Part shown: positions 28,922 to 62,793 of the stretch, piece by piece
Layout of the letters: the number at the start of each line of letters is the position of its first letter
Numbering within the stretch: the stretch's first letter is position 1
Assembly (NCBI GenBank): GCA_029237915.1
Contig: JAQWHD010000065.1
Coordinates: forward strand, 62,001 to 126,000
Source: Thalassotalea sp.
GTDB taxonomy: Bacteria; Pseudomonadota; Gammaproteobacteria; Enterobacterales; Alteromonadaceae
Reading direction: 5' to 3'
DNA: 64,000 nucleotides
Made by a program: the position numbers and the translations under genes
The notes under the pieces: model-generated
Database searches by the model: none
Told to the model about the DNA's origin: nothing
What the model saw: only the letters and a program-made list of their open reading frames with translations

Positions 28922-29498
28922 GTTAGCTCCAAAAATTAGTTTAATAATGTGGCAAAAATATTTATTGCCTGCTGTAAATTTGATGGGTTAAGTATGGTTT
29001 AAATTTTAAATTAAATAAAACGATATAAATCGATTGTATTGATAGTAAAAGTTAATTAAGAATTGCATTTATTGTCATAATAATTATTGCAGAGAATGAA
29101 AATAAAAATATTAAATTTTGTTTATTGGCAGTTTTTAATTAGAGACTTGGAATGGTCCAACTGGCCAGGGTAATAAACGAATACGTGAAAGGTGAATTAA
29201 CTGGTAATTAATTTACCTGTAGAACGACCTATATCGAAGGCAAGTTACAATATCGAAACACCACTATTGCTGGATTAGAAAACGCCCAAGCAGCACTGCC
29301 AAGATTATTTTCAGGTAAGCATCATGGAAAATTAGTAATTAATATTGCTTAAAACTACTAAGACTTTCATCTCGAAAGGCAGACCTAGCATATGAATAAC
29401 CTTTACATGAACTTTACAAAATTCTTAGCCTAGATATTTGATAACGATATCAGTAGGTGTTATTTTATGTATAATTACATTGTTGTTGGTTATTTTTG
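28922..29498. other. 577-bp gene-poor gap with a decayed gene tail
   Basis: The left part is AT-rich and should contain the promoter of the - strand peroxiredoxin-glutaredoxin gene. The centre has the oxidoreductase remnant listed separately. The last ~140 bp should hold the promoter for the cytochrome cassette; I see no clear operator. Confidence 0.7.
29212..29352 (+). pseudogene. 3' remnant of a zinc-binding dehydrogenase (CurA/MDR family)
   Basis: Between an in-frame stop at 29209 and TAA at 29350 the + strand encodes YIEGKLQYRNTTIAGLENAQ followed by AALPRLFSGKHHGKLVINIA. This is the typical C-terminus of NADP-dependent medium-chain dehydrogenases of the CurA/YncB type (EGKI..REEI..GLENAP..F..LL.G.N.GK.V). 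No start codon, no ribosome site and none of the upstream ~300 residues remain. It is a decayed gene end, not a functional ORF. Confidence 0.75.
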
Positions 29499-32400
29499 AT
29501 GTTCAATAAGCTCAGTCTACTTTTTATTATTTTCGCGTTTAATAGCGTTGCTGACGAAGATAAATTCTTTAAAGAAAAAATTAAACCGCTATTTAAAAAT
29601 TATTGCGAAAGCTGTCATGGCCCACAAGAGATGAAATCAGGATTACGAGTTGATCAGTTAGACTCTTCATTTAAATCAAAAGACCTATTTCACTGGCAGG
29701 AAATCCTCGACACCATTGAATTTGCCGATATGCCACCGGAAGATGAAGAGCAATTAAGTGAGGCTGATGTTGAAATGGCAGTTGCATGGATTGCAGATAA
29801 TTTAGAGTTGGGTTTAATTCGCGATCAAGAAAAAAATGGTTCAATACGCCGCTTAACTAAAGGCCAATATCGCCGCACCTTGCAAACGCTTTTACAAATA
29901 GACACTGACTTTACCAATATTTTGCCAGACGATGCGATGTCCAAAGAAGGATTTCGTAATAATGGTGATGTCTTAGGTTTATCACCATTACAACTTGAGT
30001 ATTATTTTAATATTGCGGCTAAGGCGTTAGATACTGCTATCGTGTTACCGAGTGAAAAGCCAACCATTCAAAATTTTAAAGTTAACATTGCTAAAAACAT
30101 TAACCCTGAACCTTACCTTGAGCCTGTCATTTTAGGGTCTAAAAGTGAGTTAATAGAGCAATCAGATTTTTTAGTTACTCAGCTTAATCCAAACAAAGAT
30201 TTCGCTTATACGCCGTTTCGTATGCAAGAAAAATATAACTTTGATGATGGTTATGAAGGTAATGGCCGCATAGATGTGATGAAAGAATTTGACCATCTAG
30301 CCCATTCATTCTTTCTCGGTCACCGCACATTAAGTGTTAATGGTAATGAAGGTAAGCCGGATCATTGGAGTATCACTCATGATGGCCTTGCCTTACGTGG
30401 TAATGTGGAGTCAAATTTAAAGACATCTCATTTTAAAATATCATTACGCGAATTACCTGAACAAGGTCGATTTAGAGTAAAAGTTAATGCCAGTAAACTA
30501 AAGAATGAAGCGTTACTGGTTAGTAATATACCTGCATTAAAGCAAGCGGAGCAGACTATAGCAGGCACTGACGGTAGAGTGTCTGTGGCAAAATCAGGCT
30601 TGTATCAATTAGATGTTAATTACCAAAACTACATTAACGGTGAACGAATTGAGTTTATCCTTGATGATTACACCTATGCTATTAAAGCGAAATCTACGCT
30701 AGCGAATGAAGGAACTCTAGATCGCTTAAAAATTACAGTGGATAAGGAAATTACTCGAGTACAAATAGATAAATCAGGTGACAATAAGTTTTTAGCGTTA
30801 CAAGAAGTGAATATCTTTGCTAAGAAAACCAATTTATCTAAAAAGGCTTCACTATCACAGTCATCCGATCATAAAGGTAATGTCAAAAGATTTGGCGCTA
30901 ACAAATTGATTGTCAAAAATAAGAATCAATACGCACAAACATCGAAACAAAATAATCCATGGATGCGAGTTGATTTAAATGCTCCTAAATTAGTCAGTGA
31001 TATCGAAATTGTAAATAAAAAAGGCACAGAGAAGAACCTTATTGGCGCCACGGTTTCATTGTTTAATGGTAGTGAGTTAGTTCAAACCTTTGTGGTTCAA
31101 GCAAATCCGCAAACTAAATCGCAAGCACTCGCATTAGTGTATTTAGATGCGGGAGAACATACCCTCAGCGTTAGCCATAATGACAATGTGGTAATTGACA
31201 GTTTTGCTCTTAGCTCTGTTACTGAGCCAAAATTACAGCAGCGTTATGCAGATTTTAGCAAGCGCAATCCACACATTGCAATGCAAATGGGCTTACGCCG
31301 AGACGATGGCTCTACCATGGCAAGTGTCGGTGATAGCCAAGAAGTAAATAGTGACGGGTTTAGTGAATATATATTTGAAGATGCGCTTGAAAATTATGCC
31401 TTTCCTAAAGTCGGTAAAGAGAATCTAAATTATTTGGTCGGTTTACGTGAAATAGGTATTACTAATCAATTGGTTAATAACTTGGAAACGCCAAGGTTAG
31501 TGATCGAATCAATTGAATTTGAAGGACCTTTATATGAACAATGGCCCACAAAAACCTATAAAAACATTTTGGGCGATTTAACCGAACAATCATTAAATAA
31601 AGACTCTGCAAAAAGTGTTATTGAGTCATTCATGTGGAAAGCCTTCAGGCGACCAGCAACCGCTTCAGAAGTAAAATTAGCATTAAGTGTATATGAGAAT
31701 GCAACTCAGCAAGATAAAACTAAAATTGATTCGGTCAAAGATGCGTTATTATTTGTATTAACCTCTCCGCAATTTTTGTTTATTGCTGAAAATAGTGCAA
31801 GCCCAGAGTTGGAGGCGTTAGATCAATACGAGTTAGCGTCAAAGTTGTCGTATTTTTTCTGGAATTCTCCACCTGATCATCAATTGCTCGACCTTGCTGT
31901 ACAAGGGCAATTACATGCTCAAATGGAACAGCAAGTTACTCGCATGATTAAGGATGAAAAGTTTTCCTTTTTTGTGAACGACTTTACCAGTCAGTGGTTA
32001 CAACTGAGTCGCTTTGATGTGGTGAAATTTGATAAGAGTAACGCTCGTAAAATTAATGGCTTTATGCGTAAGCAACTAAAGCAAGAGCCGATTGAATTTG
32101 TAAACTACTTAATTGCCAATAATTTACCAATAGAGCAATTAATTAATTCAGATTTTACTTTGGCCAATGATGCTGTCGCCGAATTTTATGGTTATAAAAA
32201 CAAAAAGGAGTCTGGCTTGGAGTTTATTCCGGTTAAGCATGAAAATAGAGTGCGAGCGGGTATCTTAAGCCAAGCCAGCATTTTAGCCGGATTATCTAAT
32301 GGCCATGAGTCAAACCCAGTTAAGCGCGGCGTATGGCTTGCAGGTAAAATAATTGATGAGCCAGCACCGCCGCCACAACCTAATGTACCAGCGGTAAACG

Positions 32401-32801
32401 AAGAAGATAAGTCGTTAACTTTAGCGCAAAAGCTTGCCCAACATAGAGATGTGGATGGTTGTCGAAGTTGTCACAAAAAGATTGATCCATGGGGTTTAGC
32501 GTTAGAGCAGTTTGATGCCATTGGTCGTGTTAAACCCAATAGTGAGATGTTAACTAAATTACCAGACGGTACTAAAGTAAATAATTTTATTGAATTTAAA
32601 CAGTATTTAGTTGACGATAAAATGGAGCAAATTGCCGTAGGGTTTGCTAAGCATATAGCCAGCTATGCAGTAGGGCGCAGCTTAAAAGTTAGCGAACTGG
32701 TATTTATCGAAGACAATCTTGATGTACTTGCAGATGATGAATATAAGATGCAAGATATCGTACGTTTTATCGTAACTAGCAAAATTTTTATGACTAAGTA
32801 A
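29499..32801 (+). CDS. Giant DUF1592-type c-type cytochrome (DUF1587/1595/1592/1588/1585)
   Basis: The ATG at 29499 is used; the track starts one TTG earlier. The 1100-residue protein begins with a signal peptide (MFNKLSLLFIIFAFNSVA) and is periplasmic. A planctomycete-type cytochrome c segment carries haem motif CESCH (residues 36-40). DUF1587 follows (IRRLTKGQYRRTLQTLLQID), then a long beta-rich middle (about 280-560, carbohydrate-binding-like), DUF1595 (MWKAFRRPATASEVKLAL), DUF1592 (ASKLSYFFWNSPPDHQLLDL) and DUF1588/1585, with a second haem motif in CRSCHKKIDPWGLALEQFD near residue 988. Function is unknown for the whole family. It is translated 10 bp before the DUF1552 gene, its constant partner. 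Confidence 0.92.
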   Translation: MFNKLSLLFIIFAFNSVADEDKFFKEKIKPLFKNYCESCHGPQEMKSGLRVDQLDSSFKSKDLFHWQEILDTIEFADMPPEDEEQLSEADVEMAVAWIADNLELGLIRDQEKNGSIRRLTKGQYRRTLQTLLQIDTDFTNILPDDAMSKEGFRNNGDVLGLSPLQLEYYFNIAAKALDTAIVLPSEKPTIQNFKVNIAKNINPEPYLEPVILGSKSELIEQSDFLVTQLNPNKDFAYTPFRMQEKYNFDDGYEGNGRIDVMKEFDHLAHSFFLGHRTLSVNGNEGKPDHWSITHDGLALRGNVESNLKTSHFKISLRELPEQGRFRVKVNASKLKNEALLVSNIPALKQAEQTIAGTDGRVSVAKSGLYQLDVNYQNYINGERIEFILDDYTYAIKAKSTLANEGTLDRLKITVDKEITRVQIDKSGDNKFLALQEVNIFAKKTNLSKKASLSQSSDHKGNVKRFGANKLIVKNKNQYAQTSKQNNPWMRVDLNAPKLVSDIEIVNKKGTEKNLIGATVSLFNGSELVQTFVVQANPQTKSQALALVYLDAGEHTLSVSHNDNVVIDSFALSSVTEPKLQQRYADFSKRNPHIAMQMGLRRDDGSTMASVGDSQEVNSDGFSEYIFEDALENYAFPKVGKENLNYLVGLREIGITNQLVNNLETPRLVIESIEFEGPLYEQWPTKTYKNILGDLTEQSLNKDSAKSVIESFMWKAFRRPATASEVKLALSVYENATQQDKTKIDSVKDALLFVLTSPQFLFIAENSASPELEALDQYELASKLSYFFWNSPPDHQLLDLAVQGQLHAQMEQQVTRMIKDEKFSFFVNDFTSQWLQLSRFDVVKFDKSNARKINGFMRKQLKQEPIEFVNYLIANNLPIEQLINSDFTLANDAVAEFYGYKNKKESGLEFIPVKHENRVRAGILSQASILAGLSNGHESNPVKRGVWLAGKIIDEPAPPPQPNVPAVNEEDKSLTLAQKLAQHRDVDGCRSCHKKIDPWGLALEQFDAIGRVKPNSEMLTKLPDGTKVNNFIEFKQYLVDDKMEQIAVGFAKHIASYAVGRSLKVSELVFIEDNLDVLADDEYKMQDIVRFIVTSKIFMTK

Positions 32802-32811
32802 CGGGGATATC

Positions 32812-34152
32812 ATGACAATTAAACATATTAGTCGTAGAGCATTTTTAAAAAGCAGTATGGGTATTGCCTTAGCACTACCTTGTTTAGAAATTATGGGCGC
32901 CAAAGCCGTTGAAAATTCAGCTAGTGCACGGCGTTTTTGTGCGTTATATACCGCTAATGGTATGTCATTACCTTTAGCTAAGCATAACTTACCCGAGTGG
33001 TCATGGTATCCACAGCAACTCGGTGCAAACTATACGTTTGGTAAATCAACCAAACCATTGGAAAACCATCGCAACGACATCACTTTTTTAGGGGGCCTAG
33101 AGCATCCTAATGCGGCGAAGTCGGATCCGCATGTGTGTTCTGATATGTGGCTTACTGGCGCGCCGTTACATGCCCCTAGACCGGGTGGTTACAACACGGT
33201 ATCTGTCGATCAAATTATTGCTCAGCATACTAAACAATATTGCCGTGTACCTTCGTTGGTTATGTCGATTGATGCTGGCGTAGGTTATCAAAGTCGTACC
33301 GCCTCATTGTCATATAACCTAGAAGGCAATCCAATCCCGGCGGAGAATAATCCAAGACATATTTTTAATCGCTTATTTTTAGCTAGCAGTGATTCACAAG
33401 AAGAGCAAAGAGGGTTACTGCGCAGCAAAACTAAGGTGGTTGACGCCGTGTTAGAAAATTCACGCAAGTTTAATCAGTCTTTAGGGCAAGTCGATAAAGA
33501 TAAAATGGATTTATACTTAACTTCGTTAAGTGAGATTGAAGACCGATTAATTACCTCAGAAAAATGGCTCGATATTCCATTAAAAAAACAAGATCATAGT
33601 CAATTAAACTTTGAATATGATTTAGAGAAAAACCCTGCTGATTTTTATGAAATCATGTTCGATATTATTGCCCTAGCATTTGATGCCGACATTACTCGTA
33701 GTGCGTCTTTCTTGTTAAATCGAGAAGATGGCATGGGTATTAGTAATACATTCCCGCAGGTCTTAGGCTTAAGCGCTGGTCATCATGCCTTGTCACATGC
33801 GAAAAACAAACAAGGGCAACTTGATTTCGCTAAGTATGATCAATTTTTAAATACCCAAGTGGCCTATTTCTTAGATAAATTAGCAGGCTTTAAAGAGGGC
33901 TCGCATCGCTTATTAGATAATACCTTAGTGATGTATGGTAGTGGTGCTAGTGAAACTCATCTCACCAACAATTTACCATTGTTACTTGCGGGCGGCGCGA
34001 ATATGGGCTTACAACACGGCCGACATATACGCGCTGAAAAAGAACAGCTAAGTAATATCTACTTTAGTATTTTAAAAGCAATGCAAATACCAGTAGACTC
34101 CTTTGCTGATAGTAACAAGGCCTTCGAACAAGGCTTATTTAAGTTTGCATAA
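32812..34152 (+). CDS. DUF1552 protein with Tat signal
   Basis: The 446-residue protein starts with a twin-arginine signal (SRRAFLKSSMGIALALPCLE), so it is exported folded. The body matches DUF1552, an alkaline-phosphatase/sulfatase-superfamily-like family related to DUF1501: TANGMSLP, FLGGLEHPNA near the N-terminal domain, DITRSASFLLNREDGMGI, LSAGHHALSHAKNK, and MYGSGASETHLTNNLPLLLAGG near the end. In many marine bacteria and planctomycetes it is encoded next to a DUF1592 cytochrome. GGGG precedes the ATG by about 7 nt, 10 bp after the cytochrome gene. Function is unknown; a hydrolytic or oxidative role on an extracytoplasmic substrate is a guess. Confidence 0.9.
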   Translation: MTIKHISRRAFLKSSMGIALALPCLEIMGAKAVENSASARRFCALYTANGMSLPLAKHNLPEWSWYPQQLGANYTFGKSTKPLENHRNDITFLGGLEHPNAAKSDPHVCSDMWLTGAPLHAPRPGGYNTVSVDQIIAQHTKQYCRVPSLVMSIDAGVGYQSRTASLSYNLEGNPIPAENNPRHIFNRLFLASSDSQEEQRGLLRSKTKVVDAVLENSRKFNQSLGQVDKDKMDLYLTSLSEIEDRLITSEKWLDIPLKKQDHSQLNFEYDLEKNPADFYEIMFDIIALAFDADITRSASFLLNREDGMGISNTFPQVLGLSAGHHALSHAKNKQGQLDFAKYDQFLNTQVAYFLDKLAGFKEGSHRLLDNTLVMYGSGASETHLTNNLPLLLAGGANMGLQHGRHIRAEKEQLSNIYFSILKAMQIPVDSFADSNKAFEQGLFKFA

Positions 34153-34195
34153 TTTCTCATACAATTTTCAATCAATAAAAATAATAGGATTTTCC

Positions 34196-34618
34196 ATGAA
34201 AAAATTTATCTTCGCCATACCTCTTATCGCTCTAACTTTTATGACGAGCGTAACTATTTCTACGCCGGTACACGCTGCTCAAAAAGTTGATAAGGACAGT
34301 GCGGTATCAACTAATTTTAAAGATATTGGCCGAACTATGCGTAAACTACGCCGTGCCAAAACGGGTAAAGATGTAGCTAAAAATCTAGAAAAAATAAAAA
34401 AACTTACCGTTAAAAACTCTAATTTAATGCCTAGTTTTGCTCCCCAAGGCAGCGCTGAATTAAAAACCTATAAAACGGAAGTCGATAAAATGATCGAAGG
34501 CATCGATACCATGATTGCGCAAGCCAATGCTGGTGAATTAACTAAAGGCAGTGACGCATTAAAACAGCTGAAGACTCTTAAAGAAGATGGTCATAAAGCT
34601 TTAGATATGAAGGACTAA
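34196..34618 (+). CDS. Cytochrome b562-family periplasmic protein
   Basis: I start at 34196 (MKKFIFAIPLIALTFMTSV, AGGAT before it), giving 140 residues; the track start at 34103 lies inside the DUF1552 gene. After a signal peptide ending VHA, the mature protein is a four-helix bundle of cytochrome b562 length. The C-terminal KTLKEDGHKAL places a His at the position of the haem-ligand His102. By ungapped alignment the haem-ligand Met7 is Phe, with a Met seven residues later (GRTMRKLRRA), so haem binding needs testing. It stands between a c-type and a b561-type cytochrome gene, which favours electron transfer. Confidence 0.75.
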   Translation: MKKFIFAIPLIALTFMTSVTISTPVHAAQKVDKDSAVSTNFKDIGRTMRKLRRAKTGKDVAKNLEKIKKLTVKNSNLMPSFAPQGSAELKTYKTEVDKMIEGIDTMIAQANAGELTKGSDALKQLKTLKEDGHKALDMKD

Positions 34619-34619
34619 G

Positions 34620-35195
34620 TTGGTGAGCAATAAACACTTAGGTTGGGACTATGTAATTCGATTAGGCCATTGGTTAGTCGCACTATTTTTTATTGCCAAT
34701 GTATATTTTATTGATCCTGATGGCTTTATCTCTGATCACTTTTCATCGGCATTTTTACCAGATTTTATTGCCGATGCCTCCTTACATGAATGGCTAGGTT
34801 GGAGCATATTGGGTATTTTAACGATACGTTTAGTTTGGGGAGTTACGTTTGCTAAAGGACCGAATCATCTTAGCGCTTTTACTCCCAACGTTACGGATGC
34901 AAAACAGCATTTTCAACATTTAAAAGCAGGTGTTAAACAACAAAATGTTGGTCATAATAGTTTGGGTGCCATTGCCGTTTATATCATGTGGGCTAGTCTT
35001 GTTTTTATTGCATTAACGGGCTGGGGGCAAGATACAGATTGGGGTTTTGACAATGACGTTGATCAATGGCACGAGTTCGCGGTGGACGCTTTTATCTATT
35101 TTATTGGCATACATATAGTGGCGGTGGTCGTTACTTCTATACGAGTTAAACAAAGCTTAATTAGAGCTATGTTTGTTGGTCATTTTAAACAATAA
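34620..35195 (+). CDS. Cytochrome b561-like membrane protein
   Basis: About 190 residues with four TM helices and the His pattern of cytochrome b/b6-type (b561, NapC-interacting) proteins: YVIRLGHWLVALFFIANVYF, LHEWLGWSILGILTIRLVWG, GHNSLGAIAVYIMWASLVFI and GIHIVAVVVTSI. It should bind two b haems and link the quinone pool to a periplasmic carrier. The start is TTG (track) or the GTG at 34623; AAGGA fits the GTG better (9 nt). It begins 1-4 bp after the b562 gene, so the two are tightly coupled. It is the last gene of the four-gene cassette. Confidence 0.88.
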   Translation: MVSNKHLGWDYVIRLGHWLVALFFIANVYFIDPDGFISDHFSSAFLPDFIADASLHEWLGWSILGILTIRLVWGVTFAKGPNHLSAFTPNVTDAKQHFQHLKAGVKQQNVGHNSLGAIAVYIMWASLVFIALTGWGQDTDWGFDNDVDQWHEFAVDAFIYFIGIHIVAVVVTSIRVKQSLIRAMFVGHFKQ

Positions 35196-35224: not shown

Positions 35225-35264
35225 AACTATGAATATTCTAAATGGAGTATTCATAGTTTATTTC
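35225..35264 (+). terminator. Probable terminator of the cytochrome cassette
   Basis: AACTATGAATA / TATTCATAGTT form an 11-bp stem with a 12-nt loop, followed by TATTTC, 30 bp after the b561-like gene. The stem is AT-rich and the U-tract short, so it may be partial. Confidence 0.5.
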
Positions 35265-61911: not shown

Positions 61912-62793
61912 GTGCCCGAATTAGATGCACGCAAACACATATTAACTGTAGATGTAGAAGACTACTTTCAAGTTTCTGCTTTTGAAAATATTGTTAATAG
62001 AACAAGTTGGGATTCACTCGAACATAGAGTTGAGCATAATACCCATAAAGTTTTAGATTTATTTAATGAGCATAACGCTAAGGCGACATTTTTTGTTTTG
62101 GGCTGGGTTGCCGAGCGCTATCCAAGTATTGTAAATCGTATTGTCAGTGAAGGGCACGAACTTGCATCACATGGACATAGTCACCAAAGACTCACCTCGC
62201 TAACCCAAGCACAAGCCTTTGCCGATATTAAAAAAAGTAAGGACATACTTGAAGACCTTTCTGGACAATTGATCACCGGCTACCGAGCACCTAGTTTTTC
62301 TATAAATAGTAGTAATATCTGGATTTACGATATCTTAAAGCAATTGAACTTTAGCTATAGCTCGAGCACGTATCCAATTAAGCATGATTTATATGGCGAG
62401 CCTAGTTGGCCAAGAGCCGCTTATCGTACCGAACAAGGGATACTAGAAATCCCCGTTTCAACGTTGAAGCTTGGTAATAAAAACTATCCAATTGCTGGTG
62501 GTGGTTATTATCGACTATTACCATACTGGCTGAACAAACACGCTATTAATCATTTTATAAAGAATGAACAACAGCCTTATATGTTTTACTTCCACCCTTG
62601 GGAGATTGACCCTAAACAACCAAGGTTTAAGCACGCATCTAATAAATCAAAACTAAGGCATTACACTAATTTAACTATCATGGAAGAAAAAATAGTTAAG
62701 CTCCTTAGACTCTATAACTGGCAAAGCGTAAGCGCAGCATATCAAGCTCAATTAACTAGCAAAGACCTCATTGAGGAAAGTGTCCATGGCTAG
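61912..62793 (+). CDS. XrtA-system polysaccharide deacetylase
   Basis: I choose the GTG at 61912 (MPELDARKHILTVDVEDYFQ, 293 residues), preceded by AAAGG; the track start lies inside the upstream gene. The NodB-homology domain contains ILTVDVEDYFQVSAFE (metal-binding Asp), HGHSHQRLT (His pair), GYRAPSFS and FYFHPWEIDP. It is of the TIGR03006 type found in XrtA loci and should remove acetyl groups from the exopolysaccharide. The start lies 1 bp after the sugar transferase stop; the end overlaps xrtA by 8 bp. Confidence 0.92.
   Translation: MPELDARKHILTVDVEDYFQVSAFENIVNRTSWDSLEHRVEHNTHKVLDLFNEHNAKATFFVLGWVAERYPSIVNRIVSEGHELASHGHSHQRLTSLTQAQAFADIKKSKDILEDLSGQLITGYRAPSFSINSSNIWIYDILKQLNFSYSSSTYPIKHDLYGEPSWPRAAYRTEQGILEIPVSTLKLGNKNYPIAGGGYYRLLPYWLNKHAINHFIKNEQQPYMFYFHPWEIDPKQPRFKHASNKSKLRHYTNLTIMEEKIVKLLRLYNWQSVSAAYQAQLTSKDLIEESVHG

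Follow-up and report, generated by a model that had tools for sequence, protein, structure and literature searches.

A row of four genes lies at positions 29,499 to 35,195 of the stretch of Thalassotalea sp. DNA analysed here (64,000 nucleotides, positions 62,001 to 126,000 of contig JAQWHD010000065.1; hereafter "the window"). All four are real, co-directional reading frames on the + strand, separated by gaps of 10, 43 and 1-4 bp. In order, they encode an exported, predicted di-haem protein of the DUF1592 (planctomycete-type) family with 1100 amino acids (29499-32801, with an alternative TTG start at 29496), a DUF1552 protein bearing the twin-arginine motif SRRAFLK (32812-34152), a b562-like periplasmic four-helix bundle (34196-34618) and a cytochrome b561 with four transmembrane helices (34620-35195, starting at TTG 34620 or GTG 34623). 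A terminator-like hairpin with a 15 bp stem and a U-rich tail follows on the same strand (35225-35258; RNA fold -16.6 kcal/mol, z -5.3) and presumably marks the end of the operon; no promoter-like site standing out against shuffled sequence was seen at the cassette. An initial annotation of this DNA had described the four genes with this spacing, two CxxCH motifs in an exported protein of about 1100 residues, a DUF1552 protein exported by the twin-arginine (Tat) route and a four-helix b-type membrane cytochrome, all of which are borne out by the reading frames, motifs and Pfam assignments given below. DUF1592 and DUF1552 each occur once in the window genome.

The DUF1592 protein begins with a PSCyt1/cbb3-type haem domain, followed by DUF1587, DUF1595, DUF1592, DUF1588 and DUF1585, an ordered core that passes the Pfam cut-offs (E-values: PSD4 1.2e-34, PSCyt3 6.6e-28, PSD3 6.9e-19, PSD5 8e-14, PSD2 1.2e-12, PSCyt1 1e-6). 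Its first haem site, CESCH at residues 37-41 (29604-29618), precedes a conserved Met79-Pro-Pro, and the second, CRSCH at residues 989-993 (32460-32474), lies within DUF1588/PSCyt3. Because the N-terminal CxxCH with its following Met-Pro and the C-terminal CxxCH of DUF1588 are kept in 22 of the 22 DUF1592-family proteins collected, both motifs look selected as haem sites, and both are predicted to be occupied. The first haem domain found no sequence match among the solved X183 structures in the PDB. Between the two sites, in the middle that the initial annotation had called beta-rich, lies an F5/8-type-C ("discoidin-like") region, a possible sugar-binding module (30759-31115; F5_F8_type_C_2, E 8e-6), whose Pfam score of 26.8 bits is just below the cut-off of 27.8; the middle of the protein also matches the fucolectin FBP32 (3cqo; phmmer E 5.7e-6), and the F5/8-type-C domain is galactose-binding-like.

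The DUF1552 protein is assigned with an E-value of 1.5e-69 (PF07586), and its twin-arginine pair, together with H107 and D133, is invariant across 19 homologues. Profile comparison aligns the C-terminal part with sulfatases (hhalign 88%, E 3e-6), as a partial match over 87 columns only, and the N-terminal part with DUF1501 (hhalign 96%), in a stretch that includes the signal region. An alkaline-phosphatase/sulfatase-like fold is thus possible from the alignments, the protein presumably contains metal, and it may have a catalytic role. A profile scan of viral contigs found no DUF1552, and a plasmid search placed distant DUF1552 relatives mostly on sphingomonad replicons.

The third protein scores 46.5 bits against the Pfam family Cytochrom_B562 (PF07361, cut-off 30; E 6e-12), and 39.9 bits against the NCBIfam cytochrome b562 equivalog NF011632, which is below its cut-off of 130. 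Its AF2 model is a four-helix bundle (helices 24-52, 57-80, 87-111 and 118-138) with a mean pLDDT of 75, and the small single-domain PDB matches of the model are cytochrome b562 (TM-score on target 0.71-0.73); the Foldseek E-value of 0.01 against b562 itself (256b) makes this comparison supportive only. In alignments His133 (34592-34594) corresponds to the haem ligand His102, the sole invariant column among 12 b562 homologues, whereas the other ligand, Met7, is replaced by Phe41 (34316-34318), so that the His/Met axial pair of cytochrome b562 is incomplete. The same replacement is found in the homologues of genomes G015 and G009, introduced below. The initial annotation had proposed a b562-like soluble carrier: the family and fold hold up, and the loss of the Met ligand indicates that the protein is not a standard b562 carrier. 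Cytochrome c' is a family with a five-coordinate haem, and the change of Met7 to Phe predicts such a haem here. A proposal that this change marks PSCyt-associated b562 proteins was rejected, as two homologues outside PSCyt clusters (loci L069 and L071) also have Phe and a PSCyt-linked one (L084) keeps Met.

The fourth protein matches the b561 family well above its cut-off (PF01292, 79.2 bits versus 30.1; E 4e-22), shows four hydrophobic helices in its hydropathy profile and has four histidines (17, 56, 151 and 165) that are invariant in an alignment of 13 b561 homologues. The b561 profile found no match among PDB sequences.

Whether the b562 and b561 genes are incidental neighbours of the PSCyt genes, as the initial annotation had asked, is answered by a neighbourhood survey: they are not. 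The cassette is shared, at the equivalent position, by a sister genome (G015, Thalassomonas sp. M1454), with identities of 79, 87, 76 and 81% for genes 1 to 4. In a second genome of the same genus as the window strain (G009), a homologous b562-b561 pair (44 and 61% identity) belongs to another PSCyt cluster, where the pair follows genes for a PSCyt1-PSCyt2-PSD1-LamG (PSCyt2/DUF1553) protein, a DUF1501 protein and an NHL propeller, and where alpha-L-fucosidase and sulfatase genes adjoin. Of 35 b561 genes in 12 genomes, 8 have a PSD1 or PSD4 gene within 6 kb (0.24 expected), and with the window and G015 left out 6 are seen against 0.19 expected (P = 2e-8), under a null model of uniform gene placement and among related genomes that are not fully independent. 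The enrichment of b561 beside PSCyt genes is at least 30-fold and extends to other genera. In the b561 tree there are two deep, fully supported clades, and PSCyt-linked members occur in both; the association therefore arose at least twice. We found no earlier description in the literature of a link between b561 and planctomycete-type cytochrome genes.

The same place can be filled by a membrane domain of another kind. Each of 13 DUF1553-type (PSD1) loci has one or the other: six carry b561 (L053, L081-L085) and seven a DUF2231-PSCyt1 fusion protein (L074-L080; Pfam was run on two of these seven, and the remainder were placed by alignment). In four of the b561 loci (L081, L082, L084 and L085) the PSCyt1 cytochrome has a gene of its own next to b561, and in L084 a b562 gene opens the row at its 5' end. 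Five DUF1592 proteins (L030-L033 and L036) likewise have DUF2231, or an alignable equivalent, fused at the N-terminus; the DUF1592 protein of the window lacks the fused domain and has its b561 as a separate gene. The DUF2231-type domain, which occupies the N-terminal ~200 amino acids and is attached to PSCyt1 cytochromes in all these fusion proteins, displays the histidine motifs FHxLxLH, H and AH/GH..HG. Five of its histidines are invariant in 12 of 12 sequences, which suggests that the domain binds b-haem. A further arrangement was observed in L083 (5160-11109; genome G065, a replicon or contig of 208 kb), where genes for a DUF1549/1553 protein, a DUF1501 protein, a 141-amino-acid protein with CKSCH near its C-terminus, a cytochrome c' and a b561 stand in a row.

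The DUF1592-DUF1552 pair itself is sporadic in distribution and constant in composition. DUF1592 was detected in 17 of 198 relatives and in 8 of a sample of 369 genomes that spans the class, and DUF1552 adjoins it at every strong locus, both those fetched from the order (18/18) and those at class level (5/5). What stands beside the pair varies: a CBM2-YceI gene, Cbp2E-like, in four loci (L038, L040, L042 and L043), a small cytochrome c gene in L032, and, fused to the DUF1592 protein itself in L041 and L089, pyrroloquinoline quinone (PQQ) glucose/sorbosone dehydrogenase domains with starch-binding modules. What does not change is therefore the core pair, whereas its partners for redox and carbohydrate functions can be exchanged. 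Two further loci have a gene for a flavoprotein of the flavocytochrome-c sulfide-dehydrogenase type directly after the pair (L087, 5959-8541; L088, 6238-8831), a possible source of electrons for the cytochrome. The cluster at L030 (11499-15857) contains, with the pair, two genes for 3-keto-disaccharide hydrolases and one each for a DUF7133-cytochrome-F5/8 protein and a sulfatase, neighbours that hint at oxidation of glycans at C3.

PSCyt/PSD proteins, for which no reaction is known, abound in Planctomycetes and Verrucomicrobia and are also found in marine Gammaproteobacteria. The closest studied relative is Cbp2D of Cellvibrio japonicus, which is composed of CBM2, a YceI-like X158 domain, FN3, an X183 cytochrome, DUF1587 and an X132 region with one CxxCH (PMC8981238), and which knockout shows to be required for growth on insoluble cellulose (PMC12542752, PMC8981238). 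The protein at L038 has the layout CBM2-YceI-cytochrome-DUF1587-1595-1592-1588 and is encoded next to DUF1552 and the Cbp2E-like gene; from its likeness to Cbp2D, rather than from the sequence of Cbp2D, X132 is most likely the DUF1595/1592/1588 core. The initial annotation had held that DUF1592/DUF1552 pairs lack an established reaction, which is so, although the family does include, in Cbp2D, a member with a cellulose-growth phenotype. Like Cbp2D and the Teredinibacter proteins TERTU_2913 and TERTU_3803 (X183-DUF1587-X132), the window protein combines a c-type cytochrome domain with DUF1587 and an extended C-terminal part in which there is one more CxxCH. Unlike Cbp2D, it has no CBM2, YceI (X158) or FN3 domain, the discoidin-like region standing in their stead, and unlike the Cbp2D system it belongs to a genome in which no AA10 lytic polysaccharide monooxygenase (LPMO) gene was found and to an operon with b561 and b562-like genes.

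Other known systems share parts of this arrangement. The PSCyt-PSD pairs of Rhodopirellula and of freshwater Verrucomicrobia have the same domains, carbohydrate-binding modules and sulfatase neighbours (PMC5615132). In Verrucomicrobia the PSCyt genes are tied to carbohydrate use with function unknown, and PSCyt3 genes adjoin one of two families of unknown genes, DUF1552 being mentioned in a file of that paper; a link to a membrane b-type cytochrome, as in the window, is not described in the available portions of that paper or of PMC2754498. The DUF1549/DUF1553 plus DUF1501 clusters (L053, L074-L085) resemble the window in having a large PSCyt protein, a Tat-type partner and a b561 or DUF2231 membrane domain, and the companion of b561 there is b562 in L053 and L084 and cytochrome c' in L083; they differ in their PSD families and NHL-propeller proteins, where the window has DUF1592/DUF1552. 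Escherichia coli b562 (CybC) and the b561-type superoxide oxidase CybB share the folds of the third and fourth proteins, and homologues of the two are often neighbours in the sampled genomes, but the window b562-like protein lacks the Met7 ligand and its b561 sits in a PSCyt operon. In the LcoA-BcnA system (b561 plus a YceI lipocalin; PMC9113575) a b561 serves a periplasmic redox partner encoded in the same operon, that partner being a ubiquinone-binding lipocalin, not a multi-haem protein. Three literatures are thereby joined, on PSCyt domains, on the CAZy domains X183 and X132 and on b561, which do not name each other's families in the portions of the papers available; likewise, no open-access paper was found in which DUF1592 is connected by name to DUF1552 or to Cbp2D, weak evidence given the open-access scope.

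We consider it rather probable that these genes are a single operon encoding a periplasmic cytochrome system of the planctomycete type that oxidises glycans and, through b561, exchanges electrons with the quinone pool. The DUF1592 protein, with its two predicted c-type haems and a probable sugar-binding module, would hold the substrate; together with the Tat-exported DUF1552 protein it would act on a glycan-derived compound, the redox chemistry taking place at the DUF1592-DUF1552 pair. The periplasmic b562-like bundle and the membrane b561 would relay electrons between the haems of this pair and the quinone pool. What the sequences show directly is the set of genes, their operon-like arrangement, the residues that would bind haem and the repeated linkage of PSCyt genes to a b561 or DUF2231 membrane domain; that the haem sites are filled, that the proteins form a complex, that the substrate is of this class, that electrons flow in a given direction and that DUF1552 has any catalytic part we infer. 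In favour of the glycan-oxidising system counts the gene content of relatives, namely fused PQQ sugar-dehydrogenase domains with carbohydrate-binding modules, the flavoprotein gene, and 3-keto-disaccharide hydrolases with a sulfatase. The repeated presence of b561, or of a histidine-rich DUF2231 membrane domain, in PSCyt clusters predicts electron exchange with the quinone pool, and the question is testable in culturable bacteria, where the window genome offers a four-gene operon present once.

Several observations weigh against this interpretation. DUF1592-DUF1552 pairs have no known biochemical reaction, and no carbohydrate-degradation genes adjoin the window cassette. The exact four-gene set was found only in the window strain and one sister genome (G015), and b561 and b562 are both missing from the majority of DUF1592-DUF1552 loci. 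With Met7 lost, efficient electron carriage by the b562-like protein is not assured. The haem potentials of X183 domains, +193 mV (PMC8981238) and +11 to +124 mV (PMC10916295), straddle that of ubiquinone and so fix no direction of flow. The path drawn by the initial annotation, from the quinone pool through b561 and b562 to the DUF1592 cytochrome, is partly supported: the recurrence of b561 beside PSCyt genes strengthens it, and the rarity of the full set and the missing Met ligand call for correction.

A first alternative concerns the third gene, whose product may bind no haem, or may hold a five-coordinate haem as a gas or peroxide sensor, leaving only the b561 and DUF1592 haems to carry electrons. 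The replacement of Met7 by Phe in all three related proteins (window, G015 and G009) fits this possibility, as does the cytochrome c' that accompanies b561 in the L083 PSCyt cluster. The bundle fold is retained, however, with His102 invariant in 12 of 12 homologues, and the occurrence of Phe in L069 and L071 shows that the change is not tied to the PSCyt context; we therefore regard a haemless or sensory role as a serious but not the favoured possibility.

The direction of flow is the subject of a second alternative, in which quinol would reduce b561, b562 and the DUF1592 haems in turn, and these an O2-dependent enzyme, possibly DUF1552, that attacks the glycan, as in the LPMO-donor idea for Cbp2D. 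The isolated X183 domain of Cbp2D does reduce LPMOs slowly (PMC8981238), the b561 of BcnA-LcoA has been proposed as the reductant of a YceI lipocalin that binds ubiquinone in the periplasm, with electrons running outward (PMC9113575), and YceI domains are present in Cbp2D-like DUF1592 loci. On the other hand, X183 domains act as slow donors or non-donors (PMC8981238, PMC10916295), those of Teredinibacter not driving an LPMO, and no AA10 LPMO genes were found in the window genome and 11 relatives (0/12); LPMO donation is accordingly unlikely here, and the role of LPMO electron donor was rejected for the window strain. Dehydrogenases that in relatives are fused to the cytochrome or encoded next to it suggest that it receives electrons, and CybB, a b561 that oxidises superoxide, uses periplasmic electrons to reduce quinone (PMC11869295). 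For these two reasons inward flow, with substrate oxidised and electrons delivered to quinone, appears somewhat likelier than quinol-driven reduction, and the O2-dependent scheme as a whole rather unlikely.

It is improbable that the operon merely unites two unrelated modules, the DUF1592-DUF1552 pair and a stand-alone b562-b561 superoxide oxidase or "redox valve" like CybB (PMC11869295), for although b562-b561 is a general two-gene module that lacks PSCyt neighbours in most sampled genomes possessing it, including a second pair in the window genome, and although peroxiredoxin-glutaredoxin and OsmC-YcaO genes flank the cassette, those stress genes lie apart in other members of the genus examined and so are incidental neighbours, b561 is enriched beside PSCyt genes in two separate clades, and elsewhere the position of b561 is taken by a membrane redox module with a different fold.

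Extended beyond the window, the glycan-oxidising reading would make PSCyt systems in general (DUF1592/DUF1552 and DUF1549-1553/DUF1501) quinone-coupled periplasmic glycan oxidoreductases. Each would be connected to the membrane by a b-type four-helix module that can be exchanged, either b561 (accompanied by b562, cytochrome c' or PSCyt1) or a DUF2231 that binds haem; DUF1552/DUF1501 would be a catalytic partner of a new kind, exported by the Tat route, and the window cassette would be the version that encodes every redox part in its own gene. We offer this generalization tentatively, with a good deal less confidence than the reading of the operon itself.

Some further observations concern the b562 family and the surroundings of the cassette. 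Homologues of b562 are scarce (5 of 198 relatives, 7 of 369 genomes sampled across the class), a profile of the window type matches only G000, G015 and G009 among 399 family genomes, and a plasmid search found no b562 relatives on plasmids. The second b562-b561 pair of the window genome (L067, 8939-10035 on contig C1) is without PSCyt neighbours; its b561 falls into the other of the two deep clades of the tree, and the Met is retained in its b562. In four genomes (L046, L047, L091 and L092; Pfam was run on L046 only) a recurrent set pairs a weakly matching DUF1592/PSCyt3-like protein with a DUF1501-like Tat protein. These sets, as we take them, also comprise a thioredoxin-like protein, a lipoprotein of 68-75 amino acids, a protein of ~400 amino acids and, in some genomes, an ApbE-like protein, and presumably resemble described flavinylation-linked redox clusters.

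A functional link of the cassette to the flanking peroxiredoxin-glutaredoxin and OsmC-YcaO genes was rejected on the grounds, given above, that those genes lie apart in other genus members. The site itself retains a trace of its history. Between the peroxiredoxin-glutaredoxin and DUF1592 genes, at 29158-29349, lies the remnant of a CurA-type NADP-dependent oxidoreductase gene that keeps the first 17 and last 45 residues, the middle being lost; G015 has no such remnant. In two other genomes of the genus (G004 and G006) an intact CurA-type gene adjoins the peroxiredoxin-glutaredoxin gene, with GlmS beyond a pilin gene in G004, and in other species the cassette and the OsmC-YcaO gene are located elsewhere. 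The remnant and these locations together indicate that both probably arrived at their present location in a common ancestor of the window strain and G015.

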